Made by a program: the position numbers and the translations under genes. Below, in pieces: positions 2,172 to 28,533 of a stretch of DNA of 35,855 bases. Source of the DNA: Candidatus Fermentibacteraceae bacterium (GTDB taxonomy: Bacteria > Fermentibacterota > Fermentibacteria > Fermentibacterales > JCC-6); the NCBI GenBank assembly GCA_016936235.1, contig JAFGPK010000063.1, positions 1-35,855 on the forward strand, in the 5' to 3' direction. The notes beneath the pieces were generated by a model. It saw nothing but the letters and a program-made list of their open reading frames with translations. It searched no databases and was not told where the DNA came from. Each line of letters begins with the position of its first letter. Position 1 is the first letter of the stretch.

Positions 2172-2861
2172 TCAGGGACTGCCCGCGGATACCACGAAAA
2201 GGTTCGATCGATCCCTCTTGCCTATCCGGTGTATGATTCCGGCATTGCGGAAACAGTATGCCATCTTCTGTGCGAGAGCTTTCCTGATGTTCATCACCTC
2301 CGCCAGGTCCTGTGTCGTAAATTCGCGGTCCAGTTCATCCGGAAGAAGAGCCAGCCAGTCTTCCGGCCGTTGGAAGATTCTCGAGTCCACGACTTCGATG
2401 AGGCGACGTTCCTCTATGACCCAGCCATTTCTGCGCCTGCCTCTCCCGCCCCCGTACTTCCTGACTTCTTCCTCTCTCACCAGAAGCGCCTCCACAGAGA
2501 AGTTCGGGTTCACGAACAGGTGAGGGAAGCTGACCATCTCTCTGAACAACTCTTCCACGCGGCCTCGTTTCGGAGACTTGCGGCGGGAGATGATCCCGTT
2601 CTCCTCCTCAGGGAGCTTAACGATCCATTTCTCGAGAGCTATGGGATAGACGAGCCTGATCTGATGGTCCGGCAGCAGCTTCCTGAGCTTATGCCTGATG
2701 GAAGCGAAACCGCCCGTCTGTATCTCTATGAGAAGCTCCCCGCGCAGGATGTCCGCAAAGAACCCGTCCACGGGAACCTCGATCAGGTCGCCGGGCTGAG
2801 AATACCATTCCTTGAGGGATGCGTGCAGAGGCTTCTCGTTCAGCAGTCCTATCTCCGACAA
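2172..2861 (-). CDS. Uncharacterised protein, possible PD-(D/E)XK-like N-terminal domain plus C-terminal winged-helix-like region
   Basis: 229 aa ORF; '...DLIEVPVDGFFADILRGELLIEIQTGGFASIRHKL...' resembles a D-(x)n-E-x-Q nuclease core; C-terminal 'FTTQDLAEVMNIRKALAQKMAYCFRNAGIIHRIGKRDRSNLF' looks wHTH-like. Confidence 0.6.
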   Translation of the reverse strand: MSEIGLLNEKPLHASLKEWYSQPGDLIEVPVDGFFADILRGELLIEIQTGGFASIRHKLRKLLPDHQIRLVYPIALEKWIVKLPEEENGIISRRKSPKRGRVEELFREMVSFPHLFVNPNFSVEALLVREEEVRKYGGGRGRRRNGWVIEERRLIEVVDSRIFQRPEDWLALLPDELDREFTTQDLAEVMNIRKALAQKMAYCFRNAGIIHRIGKRDRSNLFVVSAGSP

Positions 2862-2928
2862 TGGTCCTGATGCACCTTCCAGCAGAAGTTCAGGGTCAGG
2901 TTCAACCGGAGGGAATCCAGCCCGGCGC

Positions 2929-3735
2929 TCAATCAGCGAAATCCGTGATCCAGCGGCCTACTCTGTAGTTCATCGGCCCTCCGTGATCATCATCATTCGT
3001 CTTGGTTCCGGAGAGCATGTCCGGCGCATCCGGCGCACTGCTGAGCGCGGCGTTCGACCTCACAACCGTTGACCAGTCCTCATCATCCCGGGCGGTCCCG
3101 TATCCCAGGGTAACGCTCTCGGAGGGGTAGTATACGGCATCCTGGACTGCGCTCACGTTCAGAAACGGATCATTCATGGAGCCGCAGCTGTTCCCGAAAT
3201 GCCATACGACTTCGCCCGTGAAGGCATCGAGGCACAGGACAGACCCATCACGGGTGATGTACAGCCGGCCGTTCTTTATTAGAAGCGTGCTGCAGCTGAA
3301 ATCCGCTCCGGTGATCATCCAGAGGACCTCTCCCGTGACCGTGTTCATGGCGAACAGCGTATCCGGGTTCTGTTGGCCGGGTTCCTGATCAGACATGGCA
3401 TGCATGCCTTTTGACAGGAATGACATCCTGAACCAGTACGAATCCTCGTGCCCGGATGGAGGAAGCCGGTTATCCTCGCTGGAGGAGGTCAGATCCGGGC
3501 TGACTCCAAGGTCGCAGGAACTGCTGCAGGTTACAGGGTCCGCTCGAGGCGAGAAACTTACGGAAGGCCGTTCCTGTGAAACCATCCCCTGTTCGAGGTC
3601 TCCCATGCACGTCATCGCGACGGTCCGGCAGGCGATGCCGCCGGATCCATGAATCCCCGGGTCGGCGGATACCGGGTTTGCTGCGGCTGTTGACGGTATC
3701 AGCAGCGCCGTCAAGAGTGTCAGGCAATCCATCAT
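2929..3735 (-). CDS. Secreted PQQ-like beta-propeller repeat protein
   Basis: Signal peptide MMDCLTLLTALLIPSTAAA; propeller blades 'LFAMNTVTGEVLWMITG', 'VLCLDAFTGEVVWHFGNS'. Start at 3735 is supported by an upstream GAGG. Confidence 0.7.
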   Translation of the reverse strand: MMDCLTLLTALLIPSTAAANPVSADPGIHGSGGIACRTVAMTCMGDLEQGMVSQERPSVSFSPRADPVTCSSSCDLGVSPDLTSSSEDNRLPPSGHEDSYWFRMSFLSKGMHAMSDQEPGQQNPDTLFAMNTVTGEVLWMITGADFSCSTLLIKNGRLYITRDGSVLCLDAFTGEVVWHFGNSCGSMNDPFLNVSAVQDAVYYPSESVTLGYGTARDDEDWSTVVRSNAALSSAPDAPDMLSGTKTNDDDHGGPMNYRVGRWITDFAD

Positions 3736-3957
3736 GTGCTCCGTTCCCCTCATTCTGTCAGAACACTTCCTGAAGATGCATGTCGCTAACGAATGTAAAC
3801 TCGCGATACCACAAAGGGTTGTCAAGTTCGATGAGGACACGGGACTGGCGGTTTTCCGGAAGATTTCTACAGGCTGGATACATTCATATTCAAGAATACC
3901 GATAGAAACATATGATTTAATCTATTGATTGAGTACTTTGAACCAGTCTGGATCCAG

Positions 3958-4308
3958 TCATGCGAATTCGCTCCGGAAAACGAAGTACACCGCTCCGAGC
4001 AGACAGAGACCGGCCCACAGGTAATCCAGCTTCAGGGGTTCCTTCAGATAGAGCAGGGAAAAGGGAACGAATACGCTCAGTGTGATGACTTCCTGGATTA
4101 TCTTCAGCTGCCCGACGGAAAGGACTGTGTAACCGATCCTGTTGGCCGGCACCTGCAGAAGGTACTCGAACAGCGCTATGCCCCAGCTGACCAGAACCGC
4201 GACGATCCAGAGCTTACCGCTGAGTTCCTTCAGATGGGCGTACCAGGCGAAGGTCATGAAGATATTGCTGCAGATCAGCAGAAGAATGGTAGTACCAACG
4301 GGATTCAA
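3958..4308 (-). CDS. DMT-like small membrane protein, DUF486 family
   Basis: (M)NPVGTTILLLICSNIFMTFAWYAHLKELSGKLWIVAVLVSWGIALFEYLLQVPANRIGY... matches DUF486 from memory. Start assigned to TTG at 4308 with RBS AAAGGAAG; the upstream extension of the track ORF lies over a cupin relic. Confidence 0.8.
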   Translation of the reverse strand: MNPVGTTILLLICSNIFMTFAWYAHLKELSGKLWIVAVLVSWGIALFEYLLQVPANRIGYTVLSVGQLKIIQEVITLSVFVPFSLLYLKEPLKLDYLWAGLCLLGAVYFVFRSEFA

Positions 4309-4336
4309 TTGCCGCTTCCTTTCGTGTGAGAGTACA

Positions 4337-4456
4337 CGGTGTGCTGTACCGGACCCACTCGCCCCTGAAGGCCTTGAAGGCCTCTCCGGAACCGATCTCG
4401 TGTTCTTCATCCGCAGTCTCGACGCGGAGTGTTCCGCTCAGCACCAGCGTGTACTA
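4337..4456 (-). pseudogene. Cupin-domain gene relic
   Basis: In one frame: D-stop-YTLVLSGTLRVETADEEHEIGSGEAFKAFRGEWVRYSTP, which is cupin-like. It begins just after a TAG codon, has no N-terminal half, and the sequence after YSTP diverges. Confidence 0.55.
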
Positions 4457-4483
4457 GTCGAGACTCCCTCCTTCGCTGATGAC

Positions 4484-6196
4484 CTATCTCAACAGGCAGA
4501 GTCCCGTTGTTTCGGCGATACCGCCTGACTGGATCCTGCAGATGTAGATACCGGCTGACACTGTCCTGCCGTGATCGTCAGTGCCGTCCCACTGCACCGA
4601 ATGCCGACCCTCCGACAACTCTGAATCCTGGAGTGTCCTTACGATCCTGCCTGACAGGTCGTAAATCGCCACGGAAGTCCTCCCGGATTCTGACAGCTGG
4701 AATGATACGCTTGCGGAAGAGTGGAATGGATTCGGGGCGGCCTGCAGGGCAAGCCTGGTGGAAGGCTGGAGAGAAATGCCCTCCTGGGTTACAGTGAAAT
4801 TGATGGTGTCGGCCGCGACGGCGGAGCCGCCGTCGAAGGAAGTCACGATCAGCTCGTTCGGACCCACATCCGCGTAGAAGCAATCCTCGCGGTAGGTGTA
4901 CCTGAGTCCGGTGCCGAAGGCGTAGAGGTTCCAGTCGGTGGCCGCTATGTACATTACACCGTCGGTTATTGCCGGGCAGGAAACGATTCCGTAGGGTCCG
5001 GAAGTGGTCATGTAGCTCCATATGGTCTGCCCGTTGTCCCAGTCGATCGCCATCACCCTGGCCGTGGCATCGTAGTAATTGCTTCCCTCGCCGTAGAACA
5101 CTACTCCGTCGGCCAGCCCCGAGGACCCGTGATGGACTCCCGGTACGGACCATACCGTACTTCCATCGTCAGCATCCAGGCAATGGTAGGTGTCCACCTG
5201 GTCGGCGAAGTAAAGCCGCCCGTCATGGTACGCGGGGGTTGCGGAGATGTAGGTTCCCGGCGTTATGTCCACCTCCCAGACCGTCGTCCCCGTCAGCGCG
5301 TTTATGGCCCTCGCCTTTGCGTCGCTCCCGCAGATGTAGATGATGCCGTCCAATATGACAGGGGAAGAGTCCCAGTATCCTCCGTAGCTGTCGGTGTTCT
5401 GCCAGATTATGGAGCCTGTACCCGCATCCAGTGCATTGAGGGCGCCGTAGTACGTGGGTATGAACACCATCCCGTTCCAGACGGTGAGGCAGCTGGCGGT
5501 GTACCCCGGAAAAGTCTGGGACCATTCCTCGTCGCCGGTGAGAGCGTCGAACCGGTAGACGTGGGACTCCGTGGGAGAGAACGAGCCTCGGCCGCAGAAC
5601 ACTCCTCCATCGTAGACCGCAGGGGTGCTTCCGTCAGCGTCGGCGGCTGCCGTGGCCCAGACCCGGTCGCCGGTCAGGGCATCGAAACACCAAAGCGAAT
5701 CGCTTGCTGTGTAGACGTACCCGTCCTTCACGGTGACCGCGTCATCGGTGTAGCCGGTGTAGTACTTCCAGACTGTTTCTCCAGTAGCCGCGTCAAGGGC
5801 GAAGAGGGAGTCCTTGCCGTAGTTCGAGGGATAGTAGACCAGGCCGTCCACTATCACGGGAGTAGGGAACTCGTGGTAATCACCCGTGACCGGCGCGGCC
5901 CAGAGAATGGTATTGTCCATGGGAGCCGGTGACTCAGAGAACCCGTGATGAACGTCGTTCTGCATGTATGTGTACCAGTCCGTGTTCAGCCTGGGCAGAA
6001 GGACCGGAGCCTGGCCGTTGAGGACGTAGCGGACCGAATCGGGGATCTCGTCATCGTTCTCGACTATGGAATTCAGCATAAGCCAGTCGCCGTCGTATGT
6101 CTCTCCGTCCACCGGTTCGGTGATGATAAGGCTGGTGACCGAAACCAGTATCGAAATGAGAAATGCCGGTAAACCCATCTGCAACTCCTTCTGCAT
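4484..6196 (-). CDS. Secreted PQQ-binding-like beta-propeller protein with C-terminal FlgD-like/T9SS-type domain
   Basis: 570 aa; signal peptide; repeated '(F)ALDAATGETVWKYYTG', 'CFDALTGDRVW', 'LDAGTGSIIWQ' blades; C-terminus 'FQLSESGRTSVAIYDLSGRIVRTLQDSELSEGRHSVQWDGTDDHGRTVSAGIYICRIQ'. Confidence 0.88.
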   Translation of the reverse strand: MQKELQMGLPAFLISILVSVTSLIITEPVDGETYDGDWLMLNSIVENDDEIPDSVRYVLNGQAPVLLPRLNTDWYTYMQNDVHHGFSESPAPMDNTILWAAPVTGDYHEFPTPVIVDGLVYYPSNYGKDSLFALDAATGETVWKYYTGYTDDAVTVKDGYVYTASDSLWCFDALTGDRVWATAAADADGSTPAVYDGGVFCGRGSFSPTESHVYRFDALTGDEEWSQTFPGYTASCLTVWNGMVFIPTYYGALNALDAGTGSIIWQNTDSYGGYWDSSPVILDGIIYICGSDAKARAINALTGTTVWEVDITPGTYISATPAYHDGRLYFADQVDTYHCLDADDGSTVWSVPGVHHGSSGLADGVVFYGEGSNYYDATARVMAIDWDNGQTIWSYMTTSGPYGIVSCPAITDGVMYIAATDWNLYAFGTGLRYTYREDCFYADVGPNELIVTSFDGGSAVAADTINFTVTQEGISLQPSTRLALQAAPNPFHSSASVSFQLSESGRTSVAIYDLSGRIVRTLQDSELSEGRHSVQWDGTDDHGRTVSAGIYICRIQSGGIAETTGLCLLR

Positions 6197-9610: not shown

Positions 9611-10552
9611 TTATCCGAAGGAGGGGAGCTTCTTCAGGGCTTCACATTCTTCCTCGAGGACTCCGGCTGTAACTGCGGGCATCAATCCGGAATAGAACGG
9701 ATGCTGCAGAAACATCCCGACCGCTCCGCCTGCCCTGTCGGGCGCTCCGTAGACCAGGGTCTTCACCCCGGCGAAGCAGATAGCCCCGAGACACATTGCG
9801 CATGGCTCCAGTGTGCAGTAGATGGCGGCTCTCTCGGGTCTGCGCCCGAGTTTCTCCCGGGCTTCCAGAAGTGCGTTCATTTCGGCGTGGGCGATGCCGC
9901 ACCGGCTGGATGTCTTCGAGTTGTGACCGACGGCCAGCACCCGACCGTTCTGCACGAGGATGGCCGCAACGGGTGCGTCGCCGTTCAGAGAGCTGTCGTT
10001 GGCCTCCTGAATTGCCCTGCGCATCCAGACTTCGTGCTCACACACTTTTCCCCCGCTCTTCATCTTGTCCGCACCGGAGTCTCCTGACGGATCGACACTG
10101 TCCGGACCTGGATGCAGACCCAGCATCGCCCTTCCCACCTGGCTCCAGCTCAACAGAGCGGTCTCTTCGGGCGTTCCACCGGAACCAGGGAAAGTGCCGC
10201 TGCGATGGAGAAGGAGAAGGTCCACCAGAAAAGGAATCATACCGGCATCTTCCTCGTCAGAGGTTCCGCCGTACTGCTCAGGGTTCCTGTTGACATCCGC
10301 TCCGACCATCCGGCAGGAATCGCCATCATCCCTGAAATGAACGACATAGATGCAGTGGCCGGTCCAGCTGCGGTGAAAGAACAGCCTGCCGTCATTCCAG
10401 TAGATGAACCACTTGTCCTCCATCTGTTCGGGGATCAGTCCCCTCCGGATGATCTCCGTCTCCTCCATCGTGAAAGCCATCTCCAGATGGATTGACGTTC
10501 TCTCGGGAGGCAGGGGTTCCGTATTCCAGTCTTCCTGCCGCGCCGTTCTCAT
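9611..10552 (-). CDS. Two-domain protein: uncharacterised N-terminal domain fused to a cytidine/deoxycytidylate/tRNA-adenosine-type deaminase
   Basis: 313 aa; deaminase zinc motifs 'HAEMNALLEA' and 'TLEPCAMCLGAICFAGVKTLVYGAPD'; N-terminal 'EDKWFIYWNDGRLFFHRSWTGHCIYVVHF...NRNPEQYGGTSDEEDAGMIPFLVDLLL'. Confidence 0.85.
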   Translation of the reverse strand: MRTARQEDWNTEPLPPERTSIHLEMAFTMEETEIIRRGLIPEQMEDKWFIYWNDGRLFFHRSWTGHCIYVVHFRDDGDSCRMVGADVNRNPEQYGGTSDEEDAGMIPFLVDLLLLHRSGTFPGSGGTPEETALLSWSQVGRAMLGLHPGPDSVDPSGDSGADKMKSGGKVCEHEVWMRRAIQEANDSSLNGDAPVAAILVQNGRVLAVGHNSKTSSRCGIAHAEMNALLEAREKLGRRPERAAIYCTLEPCAMCLGAICFAGVKTLVYGAPDRAGGAVGMFLQHPFYSGLMPAVTAGVLEEECEALKKLPSFG

Positions 10553-10564
10553 CTTCCTCCCGGG

Positions 10565-11965
10565 TCATTCACCCAGCAGGATCATCTTGCACATGGTCGC
10601 GCCGGCTTCCGATGCGCATCTCAGGATGTAAGTCCCGGGAGGCATGCCGGAGGTATCGAGTGAAGCTTTTCCCGTCTCGTCGGGTTCCGTCCGGAATAAC
10701 AGTCTCCCGTTCAAATCGTACAGCTCCAGAGGGGAAGTGCACGATCCATCGATCCTGATGTTGATGCTCATGCCGGCAGCGACGGGGTTGGGCGAGATCC
10801 GGATGCAGTTGCGAGGCTGCGGACTCCGGGTTCCCCCCTCGATGGATGTGACCACGTCCCTGGGAACGAACCTGATCTCCGGGACTTCCGGTGCCGCCCA
10901 GGCCACGAAATAGCCGGAGTCCACGCTGCATACCGCGAGGTTGCCATTGTAGAGGTCCGACACTCCTGTTTCGACAACATGGCAGTAGCCGTTCCACTCT
11001 CCGTCCCAGTGGCCGCACAGTATCTCGTCCCCGTCCTGCCAGACCAGCAGCATGCCGTAATCATCGGGACTGGAGCAAAGGGCGATGGCAGCCAGAACGG
11101 GGATACCGTAAGGGTCCGGGGTCAGTGAATCCGGGCAGGCGAATCCTGGGCGCAGAACGGAATAGTAGAGTTCCGTATCGTCGCTTCGGGTCCAGAATCC
11201 TGCTGCTTCCGTGGCGCACGAGCCTGCGGCCCTTACTTCGCCATCGCAGTAATCGGAGTAGAAACAGTCGTGCATCATCGGTTCGAAATCCCCGGACACC
11301 GGGTCACCGTTTATCTGATGTATTCCGGCGTATACGTCCAGCAGAGGTGTCATATATCCGTTGTGCCAGCTCCAGAACATAGCAGGGGTTGATGTTGCGC
11401 AGCACACAGGCCTGCTGTAGGAGTTGATGTTGCCTGCGTAGGAGTCGATGCTCACTCCCAGGGTATCCGTTATGTACATCCCGCCCGTAGCATCGTACTG
11501 GAACCGGAGGGACATCACGTTGCATTCCATGCCGCCGCTGCACGGCAGGTAGGCGTCCGCCGAGACATAGAATGCATCAGTCTCATTCTGGTGCCTGGCC
11601 ACCCTTATGCTTCCCTCGACGTAACCAGGCTCGCTGAGCCAGCACAGGTCTGCGGAAGCGACCGCCCTGGATGAGATTGACGACAGGGGGGAGGGGTCGA
11701 TGAGGAAGAGGGAATCCGCGACCTGCTGTTCGTATGAGCAGGTTGCCAGCAGCAGGCGGGGTTCTCCGTTCAGGATGACGGATCCCAGTGTCGGACAGTT
11801 GAGGCCGAATTCCAGAGTGTCCTGGCCTCCTTCTATCTCCGTCAGCAGTACGACTCCGGAAGCGTAGTCCCAGGCGACGAAATTGCCGCCGGGGCAACCG
11901 ACGATATCTACGTTGGAGTAGGCAATACTGCAGAGGATTGCAGTTGACAAAAGCAATCGTTTCAT
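10565..11965 (-). CDS. Secreted protein with C-terminal T9SS-type sorting domain
   Basis: 466 aa; signal peptide MKRLLLSTAILCSIAYS; C-terminal 'ISPNPVAAGMSINIRIDGSCTSPLELYDLNGRLLFRTEPDETGKASLDTSGMPPGTYILRCASEAGATMCKMILLGE'. Confidence 0.8.
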   Translation of the reverse strand: MKRLLLSTAILCSIAYSNVDIVGCPGGNFVAWDYASGVVLLTEIEGGQDTLEFGLNCPTLGSVILNGEPRLLLATCSYEQQVADSLFLIDPSPLSSISSRAVASADLCWLSEPGYVEGSIRVARHQNETDAFYVSADAYLPCSGGMECNVMSLRFQYDATGGMYITDTLGVSIDSYAGNINSYSRPVCCATSTPAMFWSWHNGYMTPLLDVYAGIHQINGDPVSGDFEPMMHDCFYSDYCDGEVRAAGSCATEAAGFWTRSDDTELYYSVLRPGFACPDSLTPDPYGIPVLAAIALCSSPDDYGMLLVWQDGDEILCGHWDGEWNGYCHVVETGVSDLYNGNLAVCSVDSGYFVAWAAPEVPEIRFVPRDVVTSIEGGTRSPQPRNCIRISPNPVAAGMSINIRIDGSCTSPLELYDLNGRLLFRTEPDETGKASLDTSGMPPGTYILRCASEAGATMCKMILLGE

Positions 11966-19029: not shown

Positions 19030-20277
19030 TTAATTTTCTTTATCAAGTAATTTCGCAGCAATGTCCTCCGCCTTCTCGAATGATGCCGCCTCGAAAGGCT
19101 CTTCCAGGAAACGTTTGACATTCGGAGAGGTTCGGGCTTCACTTATGAATGTATTGCCCTGATACCACTCTTTTACCTGCACTTTCCCGTATTTGTGGAG
19201 ATATGCCCAGTATTTTCCCATCTTTCCCTCCTGATAGCGATTAAGGATTTCAACAATAGAATAGTACCCGTTCTCTTTAGCGATAGAAGCTGCAGTATAG
19301 TTATTATTGGTCACAATTGCCGGATCAGCCCCTTTTTCCAGAAGGAATTCTACAATACTGGAATGACCTCCATTCGCAGCCCAGATCAGTGGTGTGATAT
19401 TGTGATCTGCATTCCTGGCATTAATGTCGGCACCTTCCGAAACCAATAATTCGACTATATCAGGATGTCCAGTTTTCGCAGCAGCCATTAGAGCTGTTGA
19501 TTTCCTTCCACTTGTTGCATTCACATCAGCTCCCGAATCGATCAGTCTTTTTACAAGCTCTATATCGGCAGTGGCGCATTCACAGGCGACCATCAAGGAA
19601 TTGAAACCGCCATTGTCCTTTTTATGAATATCAATACCATTATCAATAAGTAAATTACTGATTTGAGAATGACCATTGAATGCTGAGAGTATCAGAGCGG
19701 TTGCTCCATTGCTATTGCACGCATTTATATCCACACCCTGCTTCAGTAGAATTTTTACGAGCTGATGACTACCCTCCTCGGAATGAACAAGGAATTCATT
19801 ATTGGCACGATCCACATTATCCGTGATTTCTGCTGAAATCTCGGCGGGAGTCGAATAATCCACTTCGACTATCGCTTGCTGGAATAACTCTACACTGTAT
19901 AGATTCGGCTTTTTCCCGAATCCAAGGAATCCGCGACTTCCCTTTTCTGAGATATCCACTCTTACGATACGGAAGGCTTCCGCACTTTTATCGACTGCCA
20001 CCCTTCCGGCTTCCGCTTCATCGAAAGCGCGCAGATTCTTGATTTCCCGGGTTGGTTTGCGCACTACATTCTCTTTAACGTTTACGGCATTACCGGGTAT
20101 TTCCTTTCTTGCCTTTTCAAAAGCTTCATCAATAGTATCAGCCGATACTCTCCTGCTCAGTCTGACGGATTCCTTTTGTTCCGAAGCCACCAGGAAGAAC
20201 CCGGAGGGGATCTTCTTATGAAGTTCTTCCTCCGCCTTCGATAGCGTATCTGCTTTCAGTTTCAGATTTCTTTCCAT
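19030..20277 (-). CDS. Ankyrin-repeat protein with Jag_N-like N-terminal modules
   Basis: 415 aa; about six ankyrin repeats ('NGATALILSAFNGHSQISNLLIDNGIDIHKKD...'); N-terminal 'SEKGSRGFLGFGKKPNLYSVEL' resembles the Jag_N 'KGFLGxGxKxAxVxV' signature. Strong RBS AAGGAGGG. Confidence 0.85.
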   Translation of the reverse strand: MERNLKLKADTLSKAEEELHKKIPSGFFLVASEQKESVRLSRRVSADTIDEAFEKARKEIPGNAVNVKENVVRKPTREIKNLRAFDEAEAGRVAVDKSAEAFRIVRVDISEKGSRGFLGFGKKPNLYSVELFQQAIVEVDYSTPAEISAEITDNVDRANNEFLVHSEEGSHQLVKILLKQGVDINACNSNGATALILSAFNGHSQISNLLIDNGIDIHKKDNGGFNSLMVACECATADIELVKRLIDSGADVNATSGRKSTALMAAAKTGHPDIVELLVSEGADINARNADHNITPLIWAANGGHSSIVEFLLEKGADPAIVTNNNYTAASIAKENGYYSIVEILNRYQEGKMGKYWAYLHKYGKVQVKEWYQGNTFISEARTSPNVKRFLEEPFEAASFEKAEDIAAKLLDKEN

Positions 20278-20313
20278 TATTGACCCTCCTTTAGTTCCTT
20301 ACACGTAACAATC

Positions 20314-20599: not shown

Positions 20600-20627
20600 T
20601 TGACATATGAAAATATTATCATATAAT
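20600..20627 (+). promoter_or_regulatory. Near-consensus sigma70-like promoter overlapped by an ATATGA/TCATAT inverted repeat
   Basis: TTGACA (20600-20605), 16-nt spacer, TATAAT (20622-20627). IR ATATGA (20605-20610)/TCATAT (20619-20624), with a second TCATAT at 20627-20632. Confidence 0.75.
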
Positions 20628-20634
20628 CATATCT

Positions 20635-21561
20635 ATGAAGAACCTATTCGGGGCACTGGCCAATTCCGGCAGGCTGAGGATGATGCGGATACTCCTTCGC
20701 GGGCCGCTGAACGTCAGCGAGATCTCGGACATTCTCGGGCTCTCGCAGAGCAACGTGAGCCACAGCCTCAGAGTACTCCTTGATGCGAACCTGGTATTGC
20801 GCAAGGGCAAGGGTAGCTGGGCGTACTACAGCCTGAACAGGCAAGACCCGGTTGCCGGGATGCTGATCGAAGTCGTCTCCTCCGGTGTCAGGAAGATAGA
20901 GAACTACGACAACGACATGTCTGAACTCCGCCTGTGCTATGACCGGCGCCGGAAGGAAGCACGGGAGTTCTTCGACCGTGTGGCCGCCGAGCTCGATGAA
21001 GTCTCATACCTGATGCCGAGTCCCGACGGGTACATAGATGCAGTCCTTGACGGTTTCCCCCGCGGAGGCGTGGTCCTGGATGCGGGATGCGGCAGCGGTG
21101 ACATGGTCCTGCGCATTCTCCGGTCCGGCATGTCCGTCATAGGTGTGGACCAGTCACAGGAGATGCTGTCACAGGCAGGCAAGAAGATCGGCTCCGACTG
21201 GGGAGGCAACAGCGTGGAGCTCCGCCTGGGCAGCGCCGAGCATCTGCCCGTTGCCGATTCGTCAGTTGACGGGATACTTGCGCATATGCTGCTGCATCAC
21301 CTGAGCGAGCCATCCGAGTTCTTCACAGAGGCTGCAAGGGTGTGCAGGGAGGGGGGAAGATGCAGTGTTGTGGAGCTGGCTCCCCATGAGGATTCCGATC
21401 TGAAGAGGATGCAGGGTGACCTTTGGCCGGGACTTGACCGGGGGGAGGTCCGGGACTGGATGGTCTCCGCTGGATTCGTTGACATACATGAGATAGCGGC
21501 CGGGGACGGAAGGGTCTTCATCCTTTCGGGGCTGCTGAAGGGAAGGAATGGAAATGGCTGA
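20635..21561 (+). CDS. ArsR-family regulator fused to SAM-binding methyltransferase domain (SahR-like)
   Basis: 308 aa; N-terminal ArsR HTH '[60 protein letters not shown]'; C-terminal methyltransferase '[38 protein letters not shown]'. Adjacent to ahcY. Confidence 0.9.
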
Positions 21562-22963
21562 TTACAAGGTTGCTGATCTGTCTCTGGCCGATTTCGGCAG
21601 GAGGGAGATCGAAATAGCGGAGAAGGAGATGCCCGGGCTCATGTCAGTGCGCGAGAAGTACGGGCAGAGCAAACCCCTTGCCGGACTGAGGATCACCGGT
21701 TCGCTGCACATGACCGTGCAGACCGCCGTACTCATTGAGACCCTGCGTGAGCTGGGGGCTGACGTCCGCTGGGCAAGCTGCAACATCTTCTCGACCCAGG
21801 ACCACGCGGCGGCGGCCATGGCTGCAGCCGGAGTACCGGTCTTCGCCTGGAAGGGCGAAACCCTGGACGAGTACTGGTGGTGCACGAGGCAGGCGCTGAC
21901 CTTCCCCGGTGGCAGGGGTCCCAACCTCATTGTGGACGACGGCGGGGACGCCACCCTCATGGTCCACTGGGGTTGCGAGATGGAGAGGGAGTTCGCGAAG
22001 ACCGGTGCACTCCCCTCCGATTTCACGGGCCAGGGTGACGAGGTCGCCCTGAAGCGGAATCTCCTGGCGGGAGCAAAGGCGGCTCCTTCGTTCTGGAGCG
22101 GCATCGTCCCCGAGATCATCGGCGTGTCCGAGGAGACCACCACTGGAGTGCACAGGCTGTACAGCAACATGAAGGCGGGCAAGCTGCTGTTCGCGGCCTA
22201 CAACGTGAACGACTCGGTTACCAAGAGCAAGTTCGACAATCTCTACGGGTGCAGGGAGTCGCTGGCCGACGGCATCAAGCGGGCCACCGACGTGATGGTG
22301 GCTGGCAAGAGCGTGCTTATCTGCGGATACGGCGACGTGGGCAAGGGCTGCGCCCAGAGCATTGACGGCTTCGGCGCCAGAGTAATTGTGACGGAAATCG
22401 ATCCCATCTGCGCGCTTCAGGCCGCCATGGAGGGTTTCGAGGTCACTACCGTCGAGGAAGCCCTCTCGGAGGCATCAATAATCGTGACCGCCACCGGCAA
22501 TTACAATGTCATTACGGCGGAGCACATGAGCCGGATGAAGGACCAGACCATAGTCTGCAATATCGGCCATTTCGACAACGAGATAGATGTTGCCGGCCTG
22601 GAAGCCTGGCCCGGTATCACGAAGGAGGAGATCAAGCCCCAGGTTCACAGGTTCACGTTCCCCGACGGGCACTCAATCTTCCTTCTTGCAGAGGGCAGGC
22701 TCGTCAATCTCGGCTGCGCCACGGGGCATCCCAGCTTCGTGATGAGCAACTCCTTCACGAACCAGTGCATGGCCCAGATAGCCCTGGCGGAGGAGAGACC
22801 CGCGGTAGGGGTTTACATGCTCCCCAAGATTCTGGACGAGGAGGTGGCCAGGCTCCACCTGGACAAGCTGGGAGTGAAGCTCACGAAACTGACGAGAGAA
22901 CAGGCCGATTATATCGGCGTGGACATGAACGGGCCCTACAAGCCCGAGCATTACAGGTACTAG
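21554..22963 (+). CDS. ahcY: Adenosylhomocysteinase (S-adenosylhomocysteine hydrolase)
   Basis: '[41 protein letters not shown]', '[41 protein letters not shown]', C-terminal '[13 protein letters not shown]'. Overlaps the upstream regulator. Confidence 0.98.
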
Positions 22964-27611: not shown

Positions 27612-28457
27612 TCAGTCCTTCTTGAGGAACTTGTCTGCGGGGCTGGCTACCCTGAGGGCGCTCCTTTTCTCCGCAAGTTTCATATAGGGGGAGATCATGG
27701 AGGGGGTAGTAATTCCCAGGAGCTTCCTGACCAGCTTCCTGTCGATGCCGTCCTCCAGCATGTGCACGGCGAAGCTGTGCCTGAGCCAGCCGAGTGTCGC
27801 CCTCTTCTCGATACCGACCGCCAGCATCGCCTCCGCGAATGACCTCTGTATAGTCCTGGGGGAGATGCAGTTGGTCTTGCCCCTGCCGGGGAACATCCAG
27901 GGGGAATCGTCGGTCCTGGTTTCGATGTAGTACTTCAGAATGCCGGCCACGGACTCGGCCAGTATGGTGTCGCGTATGTACTGGCTGCTCTCGTCGTTCA
28001 CATGGATGATAAGATCATCGAAATCCACTGAATTCCGAAGGAGATGGGTGGCTTCACCGACCCTGAGGCCCGAAGAGTAGATGAGCATCAGGGCAAGCCT
28101 GTACTTGAGCTCATGGACGTTCTCGAATATCTTCCTTATCTCGTCCCTGGTGAAGATACCGTGAAGGGGAACCTTCTTGGAGATGAGTCCGGGACCCGGA
28201 AGGGGACTCTCCTTCTTGAGCACATGCTTGTACATGAACCTGATGGCACTCTGGGCCTGGTTGATGTACGAGAGGGACTTGCCCTCGTCCACCAGGTCTT
28301 CCAGGTATTTCCTGAGGGTCTCTTCGTCAAGGTCGGTTATCCCGTCGCCGTAGGCGTTCTCCAGCCTGCGGATGTGCGACAGGTAGCTGTTTGCTGTCTT
28401 GGGGCTCCGCCCCGCGGTTCTCAGCACCTTTCTGGTCTGCTCAACGTAATCGGTCAT
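27612..28457 (-). CDS. Tyrosine recombinase/phage integrase family protein with divergent catalytic residues
   Basis: MTDYVEQTRKVLRTAGRSPKTANSYLSHIRRLENAYG... (SAM-like N-terminal), 'LMLIYSSGLRVGEATHL', 'LGWLRHSFAVHMLEDG', 'VRKLLGITTPSMISPYMKL'. Start at 28457 with RBS GGGAGGAAG. Confidence 0.88.
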   Translation of the reverse strand: MTDYVEQTRKVLRTAGRSPKTANSYLSHIRRLENAYGDGITDLDEETLRKYLEDLVDEGKSLSYINQAQSAIRFMYKHVLKKESPLPGPGLISKKVPLHGIFTRDEIRKIFENVHELKYRLALMLIYSSGLRVGEATHLLRNSVDFDDLIIHVNDESSQYIRDTILAESVAGILKYYIETRTDDSPWMFPGRGKTNCISPRTIQRSFAEAMLAVGIEKRATLGWLRHSFAVHMLEDGIDRKLVRKLLGITTPSMISPYMKLAEKRSALRVASPADKFLKKD

Positions 28458-28533
28458 ACTTCCTCCCAACTTGGTTTCTCTATATGCCATATTAGATGCA
28501 TTAGTAACGCAATAGCAACATGAGGCTTAAATT

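Follow-up and report, generated by a model that had tools for sequence, protein, structure and literature searches.

The 35,855-nucleotide stretch of Candidatus Fermentibacteraceae DNA analysed here (the window; contig JAFGPK010000063.1) encodes a protein, P0001, in which a first-pass annotation saw Jag_N-like segments joined to ankyrin repeats. We asked what its N-terminal region is, whether that region occurs elsewhere, where the gene came from and what the protein might do. The reading frame and the peptides singled out in that annotation lay where it had placed them, on the minus strand and within residues 8–131.

Domain organization of P0001

The gene (19030..20277, minus strand; 415 aa) is an open frame that begins with ATG. 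Its start context, AAAGGAGGGTCAATA-ATG, is a strong ribosome-binding site, and direct reading of the sequence places the Shine-Dalgarno element AGGAGGG at 20284..20290 on the minus strand, 6 nt 5' of the start codon. The product comprises an N-terminal domain of ~154 aa (N-domain), five ankyrin repeats and a tail of ~66 aa. Inspected by eye, its N-terminus appears charged and soluble and shows no obvious signal or membrane segment. The ankyrin repeats, at about residues 158–349 (19231..19806, minus strand), were identified above cut-off by the Pfam models Ank_2 (143.8 bits) and Ank (118.4 bits, five stretches), and appeared as helices in the full-length structure prediction, with pLDDT values mostly about 72–94 across residues 231–350. 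The C-terminal segment (residues 350–415 and stop codon; 19030..19230, minus strand) matched no Pfam family and had no relative in 385 genomes, phages and plasmids.

Relationship of the N-domain to Jag_N

Residues 100–131 had been likened to the C-terminal half of Jag_N, and the Pfam model of that domain (PF14804) bore this out, with 23 bits in that stretch. When residues 1–154 were searched in isolation, the score rose to 31.5 bits (E 2.4e-7) over two stretches, against a cut-off of 25; whole P0001 scored 23.2 bits, just below the cut-off. An in-house Jag_N HMM, made from 38 domains of Jag_N proteins from many genomes, gave 32.8 bits on the N-domain over residues 44–77 and 105–125, and the best single-domain score with this model among 10,000 shuffled versions of four family members was 12.5. 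The NCBIfam model Jag_EloR reached 17.6 bits over residues 103–139, far under its cut-off of 145.

Aligned to the 38 Jag_N domains, the segment GSRGFLGFGKKP (residues 113–124; 19906..19941, minus strand) fitted the G-x-x-G-F-L-G-x-G-x-K-P loop that lies past the second strand, and alignment with KhpB-type Jag_N and with the structure 3gku marks it as a Jag_N signature. This structure, described as a 'probable RNA-binding protein', was the best sequence match in the PDB; the match falls over the loop and is weak, with E 0.25 for the single sequence and 0.0079 for a three-row profile. In the reciprocal direction, a profile of the four members of the N-domain family described below was searched against 386 genomes, and retrieved only four matches outside the family at E <= 0.001. 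Three of these (L013, L014 and L015) are KhpB-like by sequence, and the other (L016), a 655-aa open frame, also scores 54 bits with Jag_N.

Tandem units and predicted structure

The annotation had also noted that two segments upstream, ADTLSKAEEELHKKIP and ADTIDEAFEKARKEIP, resemble each other, which a local comparison confirmed (score 44; shuffling p about 2e-4). Its picture of two such segments followed by half a Jag_N was right about the likeness to Jag_N, but fell short in the count, since we found three Jag_N-like units. All are on the minus strand and are supported by hhalign alignment to Jag_N and by the structure model: unit 1, residues 1–37 (20167..20277; E2-9, H12-22, E27-35); unit 2, residues 38–75 (20053..20166; E38-46, H49-59, E68-73), which the in-house HMM also matched at 44–77; and unit 3 with the GFLGFGKKP loop, residues 76–133 (19879..20052; E76-84, H87-97, E102-111, loop, E125-133), which Pfam also matched at 105–124. 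Units 1 and 2 are predicted to be beta-alpha-beta elements, and only unit 3 retains the GFLGxGxKP loop. A beta extension containing QQAIVEVDY (residues 134–154; 19816..19878, minus strand), recognized by its conservation in the family, closes the N-domain and lies outside Jag_N.

For profile comparisons, the family alignment was sliced at residues 1–37, 38–78 and 76–134. Against Jag_N, hhalign gave E values of 3.4e-5 for unit 1, 3.3e-5 for unit 2 and 9.1e-9 (probability 95.7) for unit 3, and in each case none of 100 column shuffles did as well. Units 1 and 2 were also alike as profiles (E 1.5e-4; 0/100 shuffles as good), and the similarity of units 1 and 3 (E 0.0011) was not equalled by 100 column shuffles. 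The comparison of units 2 and 3 was unconvincing, its score being reached by 4 of 100 shuffles.

The best AlphaFold (AF2) model of the N-domain, computed from a two-row alignment, had a mean pLDDT of 83.2 and the element order E-H-E, E-H-E, E-H-E-loop-E, E, E, so that the single confident model does contain repeated beta-alpha-beta units. The other four of the five models had pLDDT values of 31–39, and the full-length prediction left the N-domain unfolded. Foldseek searches against the PDB and viral models returned no match at E <= 0.001. The sequence and one model of five thus support a putative arrangement of three tandem beta-alpha-beta Jag_N-like units.

Could the resemblance to Jag_N reflect a convergent GFLGFGKKP loop on an otherwise unrelated fold of three beta-alpha-beta repeats? 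The best matches are concentrated in about 25 residues around the loop, the Foldseek result lends no support to kinship and the 3gku match is weak when taken alone. However, the two units without the loop, 1 and 2, separately match the N-terminal half of Jag_N, and reciprocal profile searches retrieved KhpB proteins. In addition, the strand-helix-strand-loop-strand order of unit 3, seen in one of the five AF2 models (that with pLDDT 83.2) and without a Foldseek match, agrees with the order of elements in Jag_N. We therefore regard convergence of the loop as improbable, and homology of the N-domain to Jag_N as very probable from the sequence comparisons.

Members and distribution of the family

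A genome from outside the order of the window's organism (G076), found among the 385 genomes, carries two adjacent genes with the N-domain. One encodes P0002 (265 aa), in which the domain is followed by a cysteine-rich, zinc-ribbon-like tail, and the other P0003 (417 aa), in which it lies mid-protein and the C-terminus differs from those of the other members. A profile of these two proteins and P0001 then identified P0004 (358 aa) on a phage-like IMG/VR contig; among its neighbours there are a gene for an endolysin-like M15 peptidase and one resembling a Holliday-junction resolvase. The domains of P0002, P0003 and P0004 are 30–34% identical to that of P0001, and a leave-one-out profile made without P0001 recovered it with 102.5 bits (E 1.4e-30) over residues 2–153. 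Across the four-member alignment, G113, G116, F117 and G119 of the loop are invariant, as are Q134, A135, V137, E138 and V139 of the beta extension, the most conserved stretch of the family. The earlier description of a Jag_N-like region on an ankyrin scaffold in place of KH-R3H therefore holds for P0001, but the domain is not bound to ankyrin. Judged from these alignments, the N-domain is a real, stand-alone domain family with several C-terminal partners.

The N-domain was seen in 2 of about 757 distinct genomes, namely that of the window and G076. The family profile had no match in further phyla, where empty results are weak as evidence; tblastn with the N-domains against plasmids and phages yielded nothing real, and a single-sequence search with P0001 found only an ankyrin gene and nothing viral. 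A weak match in genome G043 proved by eye to be a SecD-type protein, and was set aside as chance. Plasmid ankyrin genes of Calothrix, Trichormus and Streptomyces, whose alignments seemingly started at the GFLG loop or shortly past it, were likewise rejected, because the genes begin just ahead of the ankyrin part and so lack the N-domain. Since a distant bacterium and a phage-like contig carry the same front end on different tails, the N-domain looks like a mobile adaptor that binds proteins, and the family appears to be previously undescribed; the literature searched contained no text linking Jag_N with ankyrin in the sense seen here.

Comparison with known Jag_N and ankyrin proteins

Jag_N matches were present in 131 of 385 genomes. 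A sample of nine unusually long or odd Jag_N proteins drawn from these 131 genomes was surveyed with Pfam. In all nine, Jag_N preceded either KH-R3H or FapA_N, the latter followed or not by the FapA solenoid. Each of the 54 proteins in which a Jag_N domain could be detected had no more than one unit. The KhpB proteins (also Jag, EloR or SpoIIIJ-associated) resemble P0001 in being cytoplasmic and in having, close to the N-terminus, a beta-alpha-beta Jag_N that contains the GFLGxGxKP loop. KhpB, however, has one Jag_N unit (PF14804) followed by KH and R3H, whereas P0001 has three units and ankyrin repeats instead; KH_KhpA-B and R3H were absent from P0001 by Pfam, and, unlike KhpB, P0001 is patchily distributed and accessory.

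FapA (DUF342) proteins, in which Jag_N precedes FapA_N (PF20250), are similar to P0001 in that Jag_N serves as a detachable module outside KhpB. P0001 differs from them in having its units in triplicate and in the absence, by Pfam, of FapA_N and the FapA beta-solenoid. Four FapA proteins of 1100–1280 aa (L063, L066, L067 and L070, from genomes G173, G310, G059 and G070, respectively) have about 500–660 aa before an internal Jag_N, and genomes G173 and G310 have 5–6 Jag_N matches apiece. With bacterial ankyrin-repeat accessory proteins, P0001 shares five ordinary ankyrin repeats and a mobile-looking gene, but none of the three plasmid ankyrin matches inspected has the N-domain.

Composition, origin and genomic context

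The gene had been described as visibly more AT-rich than its neighbours and perhaps recently acquired. Its GC content is 0.443 and its GC3 0.418, compared with GC3 values of 0.66–0.81 in 22 neighbouring ORFs, and its synonymous codon log-likelihood per codon (-0.235) lies clearly apart from those of the neighbours (+0.11 to +0.32). The N-domain had no match elsewhere in the genus (18 other genomes) or among the genomes searched from the rest of the family and order. A similar difference in composition was seen in G076, where P0002 has a GC content of 0.449 and a nearby lon gene 0.636. No flanking insertion repeats were found at P0001, and an empty site could not be demonstrated within the genus because the region upstream of the adjacent ArsR-methyltransferase gene varies among relatives, which have in common no more than about 40 bp next to the gene. 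The composition and the absence from related genomes support horizontal acquisition of the P0001 gene, with foreign origin as the simplest reading.

P0001 is flanked by a prolyl-oligopeptidase-like gene and by the ArsR-methyltransferase/SAHH pair. No defence genes were recognized directly beside it in the window, and no conserved neighbour or operon indicating a pathway was found. At 20635-22963, an ArsR-type HTH is fused to a SAM-methyltransferase domain in a gene that overlaps the S-adenosylhomocysteine hydrolase gene; this pair is present in 15 of 19 genomes of the genus. Just upstream, at 20600-20640, is a conserved AT-rich stretch of ~40 bp with an ATATGA/TCATAT inverted repeat, and the two together may be a SahR-type regulator with its operator. 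Elsewhere in the window, a gene that appears by eye to be tyrosine-recombinase-like (27612-28490) lies beside a second dip in GC content, to about 0.50 at 28-29 kb. In G076 (L009), a DUF4062-NACHT-TPR STAND ATPase gene (2341-5658) is convergent with P0002 and P0003, and a gene judged by eye to be transposase-like is found at 9801-10949.

Possible function

RNA binding in KhpB is a property of KH and R3H, and ankyrin repeats are protein-binding scaffolds. The Jag domain itself has been described as mediating protein-protein interactions (PMC11898072); in Streptococcus pneumoniae and Lactococcus cremoris, that of KhpB binds MpgA/MltG at its cytoplasmic N-terminus (PMC12542702). Because the Jag domain of KhpB binds proteins and not RNA, kinship to Jag_N implies no RNA binding, and we read P0001 as a soluble cytoplasmic adaptor, or scaffold, encoded by a horizontally acquired accessory gene. 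The Jag triplet would be a docking head for one partner, much as KhpB docks onto MltG/MpgA through its Jag domain; the ankyrin repeats would form a binding rod for a second partner, and the C-terminal tail may be a further binding or effector part. We give this adaptor role, drawn by analogy with KhpB, an even chance. The explanation that we favour somewhat is that of an acquired accessory gene for an adaptor, in which the Jag_N triplet and its beta extension constitute a new mobile domain family.

A tentative alternative is a conflict system, either anti-phage or phage-encoded, in which the Jag-like triplet would pair sensors with effectors and the ankyrin repeats would sense or recruit. In G076 the paralogues lie end to end and adjoin the STAND gene, with the transposase-like gene nearby, and an endolysin and a nuclease of Holliday-junction type accompany P0004 on its phage-like contig; a patchy distribution and foreign composition would also fit. 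However, P0001 has no defence neighbours, its PADLOC matches are confined to the ankyrin repeats, and the STAND neighbour, seen in a single genome, could be coincidental. We keep conflict as a rival, based on that one neighbour and one phage-like contig. It is similarly possible, though doubtful, that the family provides an interchangeable docking head for phage-borne and bacterial accessory proteins with ankyrin, zinc-binding or other tails, probably in phage-host conflict. An RNA-associated regulator, whose Jag-like part would bind RNA or recruit KhpB/KhpA-type RNA-binding complexes, is suggested by kinship with the Jag_N of RNA-binding KhpB but is quite unlikely, as P0001 is missing the KH and R3H domains, the contacts reported for Jag are with proteins (PMC12542702, PMC11898072) and no Jag_N match to a KhpB protein was found in the genome that the window comes from.

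In the proteins examined otherwise, Jag_N is a single copy before KH-R3H, as in KhpB, or before FapA. What is new here is the Jag_N-like part as a triplicated, mobile, multi-partner domain family, and its presence in triplicate on unrelated tails points to a general docking module. The family provides a new searchable domain for the annotation of accessory and phage genes, as well as a handle on the role of Jag_N itself, so far little understood in KhpB.
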